Shown here: positions 10,971 through 18,713 of the stretch, one piece after another
How positions within the stretch are numbered: position 1 is the first letter of the stretch
How the letters are laid out: each line of letters begins with the position of its first letter
IMG/VR virus record: IMGVR_UViG_3300037635_001174
Coordinates: 1-24,241 of that record
Length of the DNA stretch: 24,241 nucleotides
Origin: a virus
Reading direction: 5' to 3' (one strand)
Translations under genes and position numbers: made by a program
The notes under the pieces: generated by a model
The model's database searches: none
Told to the model about the DNA's origin: nothing
The model's input: the letters and a program-made list of their open reading frames with translations, nothing else

Positions 10971-13900
10971 ATGGCACTAACAGGTAATAAAAATCTTTTT
11001 ACTGCTACCACTACCCAAAGGGCAGGAGTTACCCCTACTAAAGAACAAATATTCCTAGATACAAATACAGGTTCAGCCGCTAATGGTGTTTTTATTGGTG
11101 ATGGTGCTACAGCAGGTGGTAGGTCGGCAGACGTTAGGCCACTAGAAACAAAAAACGCTGATTATACATTCGTTAGAGCAGACGAAGCACGTTTGATTAT
11201 ACATACTAACTCTTCTACATATACATATAAATTACCCCCATACTCTTCTGTCCCTTTTCCAGTAGGATTAAGTGAATTACAAATTATGAACGAAGGTAGT
11301 GGTAATATTACTATTGCTACTGATGACGGTACAGTAGTTTCTCTTGTAGGTCAAGGGGTTAGTAATCCGGGTACTAGCGGTACATTTACCTTAACACAAA
11401 ATCAAAAAGTATATTTAAGACATAGTGCTACACAAGATACTTGGATTGCATATCAAAATAATGCTACAGGACCGACAGGTCCACAAGGTATTCAAGGTAT
11501 TCAAGGTATTCAAGGAAATACAGGTCCTACAGGGCCGACAGGCTCACAAGGTCCTGCGGGACCCACAGGTCCTACGGGTTCTACTGGTAGTACAGGTTCT
11601 CAAGGTCCACAGGGAATACAAGGTAATACGGGTTCAACAGGTGCGGCAGCAGGTGTAGGAACACCAACTATTACAACAGGTGCTTTAGCGGTAGCAGTAA
11701 GTGGACCCGACACAGCAAAAGTGTTTGAGTTTACAGTACCTTTAGGTCCGGGCGGTCCTATAGGTCCGGCAGGTAGTAGGGTAGGTTTAGTTTGGAAGTT
11801 TAGTACGACTACAACAGAATCAGACCCCGGTTCAGGGTTTATGAGATTTGATAATGGTACATTCGCTAACATTACTGAAATCTATATTGATGAAGAAGAT
11901 GCTAATGCTGTAAATCAAGATGATTGGTTTAGTTTTGTAGGTTTATCTAATAACACTAGAAAAGGTCTATTACAAATACAACATCGAGGCGGAGATGTAG
12001 AAGAGTTTGCTAACTTTATAGTTAATACTGTTACAGATAACACCGGGTGGTATACACTAGGGGTAAGCCCTTCAACCGCTAGTCAAACAGACGTTCTAAC
12101 AAACAACACAAAGTATGTAGTAAACTTTGGTCAGGCAGGTCAAATAGGTTCACAAGGACCGACAGGTGGTACAGGACCAACAGGTCCTCAAGGCCCAACC
12201 GGAAGCACAGGTTCTCAAGGTCCAAGTGGTAGTACAGGACCAACAGGTCCGACAGGACCAACAGGGCCAACTGGTGCAGATTCTACAGTAGCAGGGCCGA
12301 CAGGCCCGTCAGGACCTACAGGTTCACAAGGCCCTACAGGACCGGATGGACCGCAAGGTCCACAAGGAACAACAGGTTCAACAGGGCCTCAAGGTCCTAC
12401 TGGACCTCAAGGCGTAGCAGGACCTACAGGCCCTACAGGTAGTCAAGGACCAACAGGTCCGACAGGACCGGATGGTAATTTTGGTGGGGCTTCATTTAAG
12501 TATGATTTCGATGCTGCTAATGGTATAGCAGACCCCGGCGCAGGTAAACTAAGATTAAATAGTGCTACACAAAATGCCGCTACACATATTGTTATTGATG
12601 ATAGCGATTTAGACGGTAGCGATATTCAATCTTTTATGAGAACAATAGACGATTCTACTTCTACAATAAAAGGTCATGTAAAGATAAGTAATTTACTAGA
12701 CGCTTCACAATTTATAATATTCACTATTTCTTCACTAACTGAACAAACAGGTTATTTTGATATAACAGTAAGTGGTATAGACTCTTCTGCTACATCACCT
12801 TTTAGTGCGGGGGAAGATATTTTAGTCACATTCGCAAGAACGGGTGATAAAGGAGATACCGGACCTGCCGGTCCTACAGGCCCTACTGGACCACAGGGAC
12901 CAACGGGCAGTCAAGGACCTATTGGAAATACAGGGCCAACAGGACCGGATGGGCCGGATGGACCAACAGGACCTCAAGGTGGAACAGGGCCTCAAGGGCC
13001 TACAGGGCCAACAGGTAGCACAGGCGCAGCAGGTCCACCGGGACCAACAGGTAGCACAGGTAGTCAAGGACCAACCGGACCTACAGGGCCTCAAGGTACT
13101 ACAGGTAATACAGGACCTACCGGAGTCGCAGCAGGTTTTGGGACACCGACAGTATCTAGTGGTCCATTAGCAATCGGCTCTAGTGGGCCGGACACAGCAA
13201 AGGTCTTTGCATTTACAATCCCACCGGGTTCTACTGGTCCGACAGGACCTACCGGCCCAACAGGTCCAACAGGTCCGGCGGGCGCAACAGGTTCTACAGG
13301 TTCTACAGGCCCAACAGGACCGGCGGGTGCATCAGCAGGTGTTGGTACACCTACCATAACTACAGGCCCTTTAGCAGTAGCAACAAGCGGCCCGGATAAT
13401 GCTAAAGTATTTGCCTTCACGATTCCGGCAGGGCCTACAGGACCTACTGGGCCACAAGGTCCTACTGGAAGTCAAGGTCCTACGGGACCTACTGGGCCGA
13501 CCGGACCTACCGGACCAACGGGTAGTACTGGAAGTCAAGGTTCTATCGGACCTACAGGTCCTACAGGCGCAGACGGTAATTTTGGTGGCGCATCTTTTAA
13601 ATACGATTTCTCTACAAATACAACAGATAGCGACCCCGGCGCAGGTAAGGTAAAACTAAACAACGCCACTCAATCATCTGCTACTAGAATCTATATAGAT
13701 GACAGCGATTTAGACGGAACAGATATTCAATCATTCCTTCGTACAATAGATGATTCTACATCTGCAATAAAAGGACACGTTAAAATTAGTAATTTACTAG
13801 ATGCAAGTCAATTTACTTTACATACTATTACTTCTCTATCAGAAGATTCGGGTTACTTTGACATAACAGTAAGTACAATAGACTCTTCTGCTTCTGCGCC

Positions 13901-18143: not shown

Positions 18144-18713
18144 ATGTCAGAAATGATGGAACATCCCGCATGGATAATGTGGGAAGAAGCGTTGAGTGAA
18201 GAAATAGTGAATGAAATAATTGAGGCAGCAAAGGAAGCAGAACCTCAAGCGGCATCTACCTTTAGAACAGGTGAAGGTAAAGAAGATAGCCATAGAAAAA
18301 CACAAATAAGATGGCTGCAAGATGAAAAATATAAACCTCTTACAGAACAAATGATGTGGTATGTAGAAAAAGCAAATGAACATTTTGATGTAGAAGTATC
18401 TTATCTACCACCATTACAATTTACAGAATACAAAGATATAGGCTACCATTATGGTATGCACCACGATATTGATTGGAACAGACAAGATGGTATGCATAGA
18501 AAAATAAGTGTAGTAGTCCAACTATCAGACCCCAAAGATTATAAAGGTGGAGAATTAACATTTAGTCATACACAAAACCCCGACCCAATAGCACTTGCTA
18601 AGAAAGGTACAGTAATATGTTTCTTATCTTACTTTGAACACGCAGTAGCACCTATTACTAAAGGTAGCAGAACAAGTCTAGTAGGATGGGCCGAAGGCCC
18701 ACGTTGGAGTTGA
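18144..18713 (+). CDS. Fe(II)/2-oxoglutarate oxygenase, prolyl-4-hydroxylase type
   Basis: 189 residues. The double-stranded beta-helix motifs are complete: HxD iron ligands H106 and D108 in YHYGMHHDID, distal ligand H166 in SYFEHAV, and R176, ten residues later, for the 2-oxoglutarate carboxylate. KGGELTF (134-140) and FTEYKDIGYHYG (93-104) are typical of the prolyl-4-hydroxylase/PKHD group, also found in marine phages. These enzymes use O2 and 2-oxoglutarate to hydroxylate proline or other residues. The gene has its own TATA-like promoter and lies about 1 kb after the collagen-like fibre gene, which makes the fibre an attractive substrate. Free substrates or host proteins remain possible; the catalytic family is secure, the substrate is inferred. 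Confidence 0.88.
   Translation: MSEMMEHPAWIMWEEALSEEIVNEIIEAAKEAEPQAASTFRTGEGKEDSHRKTQIRWLQDEKYKPLTEQMMWYVEKANEHFDVEVSYLPPLQFTEYKDIGYHYGMHHDIDWNRQDGMHRKISVVVQLSDPKDYKGGELTFSHTQNPDPIALAKKGTVICFLSYFEHAVAPITKGSRTSLVGWAEGPRWS

Follow-up and report, generated by a model that had tools for sequence, protein, structure and literature searches.

The 24,241 bases of IMG/VR virus record IMGVR_UViG_3300037635_001174, from a marine virus and all of which form the window analysed here, encode a long collagen-like tail fibre and a small 2-oxoglutarate (2OG)-Fe(II) oxygenase, and we propose that the oxygenase is probably dedicated to modifying the fibre that this virus encodes, acting most likely on proline at the X position of the Gly-X-Y triplets. 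The oxygenase has intact ligands and a prolyl-hydroxylase-like fold, is gained and lost together with the collagen shaft, and belongs to a clade of collagen-associated enzymes. It would be made late, together with the structural genes, and would act in the cytoplasm of the infected cell, hydroxylating Gly-Pro-Y shaft prolines before or during trimerisation. The likeliest site would be the proline in X of GPT and not the scarce one in Y, and the modification may allow the long triple helix of the shaft to fold and stay stable.

The fibre gene, open reading frame (ORF) 10971-17126, encodes the 2051-residue Gly-X-Y protein described in the original prediction, matches Pfam Collagen (PF01391, 2e-74) and has the long, perfect, proline-rich Gly-X-Y runs of a collagen-like protein with a predicted triple-helical shaft. 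Its uninterrupted runs hold 225 triplets, among them 91 GPT and 12 GPP; proline occupies X in 140 triplets and Y in 12, and threonine occupies Y in 132. The 189-aa oxygenase matches PF13640 (2OG-FeII_Oxy_3; 1.3e-15, 58.5 bits against a cut-off of 27) and phrog_61 (1.2e-29). The four ligands that had been predicted, H106, D108, H166 and R176, stand at those positions and are invariant across 38 homologues, which places the protein among the 2OG-Fe(II) oxygenases. A search of the PDB with an AlphaFold2 model of the enzyme (mean predicted local distance difference test score 88) returned mostly protein prolyl hydroxylases; the matches include the PKHD-type enzyme 3dkq as well as the EF-Tu prolyl hydroxylase of Pseudomonas putida, the viral collagen prolyl hydroxylase (vCPH) of chlorella virus PBCV-1, an algal prolyl 4-hydroxylase (P4H), PHDs, the Bacillus anthracis P4H and human collagen P4H (C-P4H-II). 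By sequence, the oxygenase is a PKHD-type (YbiX/PiuC-like) enzyme outside the animal-type C-P4H family, which is not its closest relation (match to C-P4H-II weak, E 0.0035). The earlier description of the enzyme as of prolyl-hydroxylase type therefore holds for the fold and not for membership of the animal collagen family; judged from fold and gene context, the oxygenase may well work like a protein prolyl hydroxylase.

Relatives were collected by means of the oxygenase, the capsid protein and the downstream tail gene g21381, yielding 49 loci informative for both the oxygenase and a collagen shaft. Twenty-one of these loci have both, 27 have neither and one (L470) has collagen only, such that 48/49 are concordant, and the co-occurrence expected in relatives is borne out. 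Along the g21381 tree, the two traits switch in concert five times independently and never discordantly, and collagen once changes while the oxygenase does not. The oxygenase is absent from one clade (L443, L444 and L446-L449) that keeps the neighbouring genes and the C-terminal domain of the fibre; the visible shafts of this clade (L446 and L447) share homology with that of L140, a beta-repeat shaft without collagen on a fibre that retains the same N-terminal and YadA-like domains as the window fibre, and L443, L444, L448 and L449 were left unscored for collagen. Six of eight records are long genomes (64-72 kb), each with exactly one PF13640 gene. We rejected L426 as a case of oxygenase without collagen because its fibre is truncated by the contig end.

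The pairing extends beyond this lineage. Viral contigs were scanned for GPT repeats, with a control scan for Gly-Pro-Y repeats in which Y is not Thr, and in the two scans together 12 distinct collagen loci were accompanied by an oxygenase of the family, each time on the same strand and no more than 2.5 kb downstream, as against 0/60 among loci without a collagen ORF. GPT richness as the sole predictor has slight support (6/22 against 2/39, p = 0.02) and fails for Erythrobacter. A search by enzyme sequence alone found a same-strand collagen ORF in 69/80 viral loci, with less than 3 kb of upstream sequence present in the remaining 11; at 71-100% similarity to the query, these loci amount to a single lineage rather than 80 events. 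In cellular genomes, the enzyme lies just ahead of a GP[ST]-repeat protein resembling a lipoprotein in five cultured Sphingobium strains (L579-L583; triplet values taken from the + strand ORF), and immediately after a trimeric-autotransporter-like collagen protein in an Erythrobacter metagenome-assembled genome. An IQ-TREE tree of the enzymes gathers the collagen-linked members in one 28-member clade (support 99/93) that takes in tailed marine viruses, cultured cyanophages, Sphingobium and Erythrobacter, and whose virus backbones are unrelated (archaeal-type siphovirus, Kyanoviridae and others); outside it, L298 and L312 alone had collagen beside them. Judged by these comparisons, the pairing is beyond chance and the two genes are functionally coupled, and this branch of oxygenases appears to occur almost only beside collagen-like genes.

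The residue that is modified can be narrowed down by comparing the linked shafts. The original prediction offered the GPPG and IPPG sites as Y-type prolines, adding that most prolines lie in X and that the substrate could differ, and it is this caveat that points to the likelier site. Hydroxylation of Y-position proline, as by animal C-P4H, would suit the 12 GPPG and five IPPG sites counted in the window fibre and the preference of B. anthracis P4H for Y, although that enzyme also modifies X in (PPG)n (PMC8968730). Against this, the gene is kept with shafts that have no Y-position proline at all in three separate groups, comprising 5/13 fibres in the lineage, 21/35 in other marine phages and 5/5 in Sphingobium. 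Because linked shafts of this kind are common, GPPG and IPPG are unsupported as the target; we rejected them as the key site and regard Y-position hydroxylation as rather improbable. X-position proline, by contrast, recurs at high frequency in every linked group (GPT, GPS and GPA). Gly-Hyp-Thr peptides reportedly form stable triple helices, whereas Gly-Pro-Thr peptides do not (work attributed to Bann and Bachinger and to Mizuno).

A modification of some other shaft residue (Thr, Ser, Asp or Asn), or of a non-collagen part of the fibre, has in its favour that in most linked shafts Y is more often Thr than any other residue and that fold alone does not fix the substrate. The Erythrobacter shaft, however, has few Y-position threonines, the Sphingobium shafts consist almost only of Gly, Pro, Ser, Thr and Ala, and the non-collagen parts of the linked proteins are unrelated, leaving X-position proline as the common factor; we consider this alternative unlikely. 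Y-position Thr is common across bacterial collagens in general (PMC8968730), so GPT alone is no signature of this oxygenase. Glycosylation of Thr may be a further layer, since it is glycosylated threonine, not 4-hydroxyproline, that gives stability to the cuticle collagen of Riftia (PMC6953826).

Lysine was also tried as the oxygenase's substrate and rejected, as the gene is kept beside Lys-free shafts. Y-position Lys goes with a different enzyme, a fusion protein with GT25, PLOD-type glucosyltransferase and lysyl-hydroxylase regions (domains identified by Pfam in S-CAM9, L181 and L024), which occurs at 49 distinct loci; Y-position Lys makes up at least 10% of triplets in 48/49 of these, and in 0/23 loci that lack the fusion protein. 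The S-CAM9 version also matches COLGALT1 in its GT25 region, LH3 in its glucosyltransferase region and the mimivirus lysyl hydroxylase (L230). Enzyme sets track shaft composition, and because the oxygenase accompanies both Lys-rich and Lys-poor shafts, its target must be common to both, which would be Gly-Pro. In Synechococcus phage S-CAM9, the fusion gene (L404:10543-12387) adjoins a Lys-rich collagen tail fibre, an arrangement repeated in L181, L024, L218, S-PRM1, S-8S53/55/56 and Roseobacter phage CRP-6; the gene is mostly annotated as hypothetical. S-CAM9 also has a different, second 2OG oxygenase (PF13640; L404:9381-9992) between the collagen fibre and the oxygenase homologue.

Two further explanations would deny the oxygenase any role in the fibre. 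The literature reads phage 2OG-Fe(II) oxygenases as auxiliary metabolic genes (PMC3037559; PMC10160649), and some family members adjoin DNA-metabolism genes (CRP-810), such that the window gene might serve 2OG/nitrogen signalling, DNA repair or the iron cycle and adjoin the fibre gene by accident. This is very unlikely given that its gain and loss are linked to the shaft, that same-strand adjacency is conserved, and that the bacterial pairing has a different gene order. The adjacency might instead be the inherited operon structure of one mobile tail cassette, without functional meaning; there are only five independent pairs, and synteny is common to related viruses. The clade nonetheless spans unrelated virus backbones, and in bacteria the enzyme's neighbour is a different collagen protein, which it precedes in Sphingobium and follows in Erythrobacter, making a meaningless cassette the least probable explanation.

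Several observations do weigh against a dedicated fibre hydroxylase. The sign test on the independent pairs gives p = 0.06, and cannot reach 0.05 because there are only five pairs; L470 carries a GPT-poor collagen without the oxygenase; and no collagen was seen for clade members L585 and L586. Collagen is missing from the surroundings of most other phrog_61 members, suggesting that the wider family has other substrates. The solved enzymes nearest in sequence are of PKHD type (YbiX/PiuC; 3dkq and 9ghl), with vCPH only after them; these YbiX/PiuC proteins are, however, larger cellular enzymes, PiuC is tied to iron uptake, and the window oxygenase, at 61 bits, falls far under the cut-offs (at least 143) of the NCBIfam YbiX/PiuC-type models and so outside their equivalogs. 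For the clade as a whole, we see about an even chance that these small PKHD-type enzymes hydroxylate collagen proline at X (in Gly-Pro-Thr/Ser/Ala) and thereby mature the collagen-like fibres of archaeal viruses, bacteriophages and alphaproteobacteria, joined in cyanophages by the single galactosyltransferase/glucosyltransferase/lysyl-hydroxylase protein in an animal-like collagen modification pathway of viruses of prokaryotes.

The window also encodes a terminase, a portal, a tail-tube protein and other structural proteins, with a probable prohead protease and capsid protein. Two genes separate the fibre gene from the oxygenase gene (Table 1). Residues 1-166 of the fibre are probably its virion-attachment end, and the YadA-like C-terminal region is its probable receptor-binding end. 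In six relatives (L011, L012, L013, L014, L017 and L023), the slot of the 191-aa protein, just before the oxygenase, is filled by a second collagen-like protein of about 200 aa with 20 triplets. An extra gene resembling spermidine synthase/methyltransferase lies between fibre and oxygenase at L010:1225-1773, L452:132-707, L458:5987-6544 and L481:608-1171.

Table 1. Features of the fibre-oxygenase module, in window coordinates.
Feature	Position	Strand	Remarks
Fibre N-terminal domain (aa 1-166)	10971..11468	+	tblastn to relatives including L140/L147; also kept where the shaft is non-collagen
Collagen-like shaft	11469..15719	+	19 Gly-X-Y runs, 225 triplets, GPT dominant
Shaft interruptions: inserted domain, three copies	~11781-12128, 12483-12842, 13584-13943	+	accompany 11 beta units
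Shaft interruptions: beta-unit span	11652..15590	+	30 aa each, pattern [VF]GTP..GPxTAK[VI]F.FT[IV]P
Beta-unit starts	11652, 13134, 13338, 14145, 14340, 14535, 14730, 14907, 15093, 15315, 15501
Fibre C-terminal non-collagen region	15720..17126	+	YadA-like repeats
Small 191-aa protein	17119..17694	+	overlaps fibre gene end
120-aa protein	17687..18049	+	phrog_18037; kept also in oxygenase-free relatives
2OG-Fe(II) oxygenase, proposed shaft prolyl hydroxylase	18144..18713	+	H106, D108, H166 Fe ligands; R176 binds 2OG

The suggestion that this is an archaeal virus gains support from a relative, G005 (71.7 kb, 85% capsid identity), in which a family-B polymerase and an RFC-like clamp loader are accompanied by an ERCC4 nuclease and a chaperonin of the cpn60 family. 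The best-covering matches to its polymerase are from haloarchaeal tailed viruses, as are the highest-scoring among the matches listed for its clamp loader. These archaeal-type replication genes make a marine archaeal host likely, possibly one of the Poseidoniales. A search of genome contigs with the alignment of the major capsid protein (MCP) found no host contig, and the MCP had no match among cultured phages. Although the virus is apparently archaeal, the chaperonin of the relative (L486:10679-12244) is GroEL-like and closest to bacteriophage GroEL.

Virus-coded collagen hydroxylation is already known from mimivirus and chlorella virus. Mimivirus encodes collagen hydroxylases and glucosyltransferases (L593, L230 and R699) alongside collagens such as L71 (PMC9546862). 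The likeness is that one virus encodes collagen-like proteins together with their modifying (here putative) enzymes; mimivirus, however, is a giant virus of amoebae, whereas here a PKHD-type enzyme stands beside a tail-fibre gene in tailed viruses of prokaryotes. PBCV-1 vCPH (PDB 5c5t) resembles the window oxygenase in fold (rank 4, E 1.6e-10, TM ~0.7) and by profile (E 2e-11), but at ~20% identity is more distant in sequence than the PKHD-type enzymes. The cyanophages S-CAM9 and S-PRM1 have phrog_61 members, the family of the window oxygenase, that adjoin collagen fibres, although collagen is absent near most members outside the 99/93 clade. In B. anthracis, the collagen-like protein BclA is itself GPT-rich. 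A bacterial prolyl hydroxylase, B. anthracis P4H, has been linked with BclA and modifies the prolines of (PPG)n at X as well as at Y (PMC8968730), but it is of another subfamily, with no dedicated neighbouring pair shown. For viruses of prokaryotes, we found no report of virus-coded collagen hydroxylation in the open-access literature searched; some phage proteins bear automatic names such as 'procollagen-proline 3-dioxygenase'.

The 2OG oxygenases of phages and archaeal viruses are usually classed as auxiliary metabolic, whereas the evidence on at least one clade speaks for fibre maturation. Cultured test systems exist in phages S-CAM9 and S-PRM1 and in the Sphingobium strains, and the natural role of X-position hydroxyproline in stabilising Gly-Pro-Thr collagen becomes directly testable; the clade also suggests a compact enzyme source for the production of hydroxylated collagen in bacteria. 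Since this oxygenase branch seems to occur almost only beside collagen genes, viruses that infect microbes, like animals, probably carry out chemical modification of their own collagen. If true, virus-coded collagen hydroxylation would extend from giant viruses to viruses of prokaryotes.
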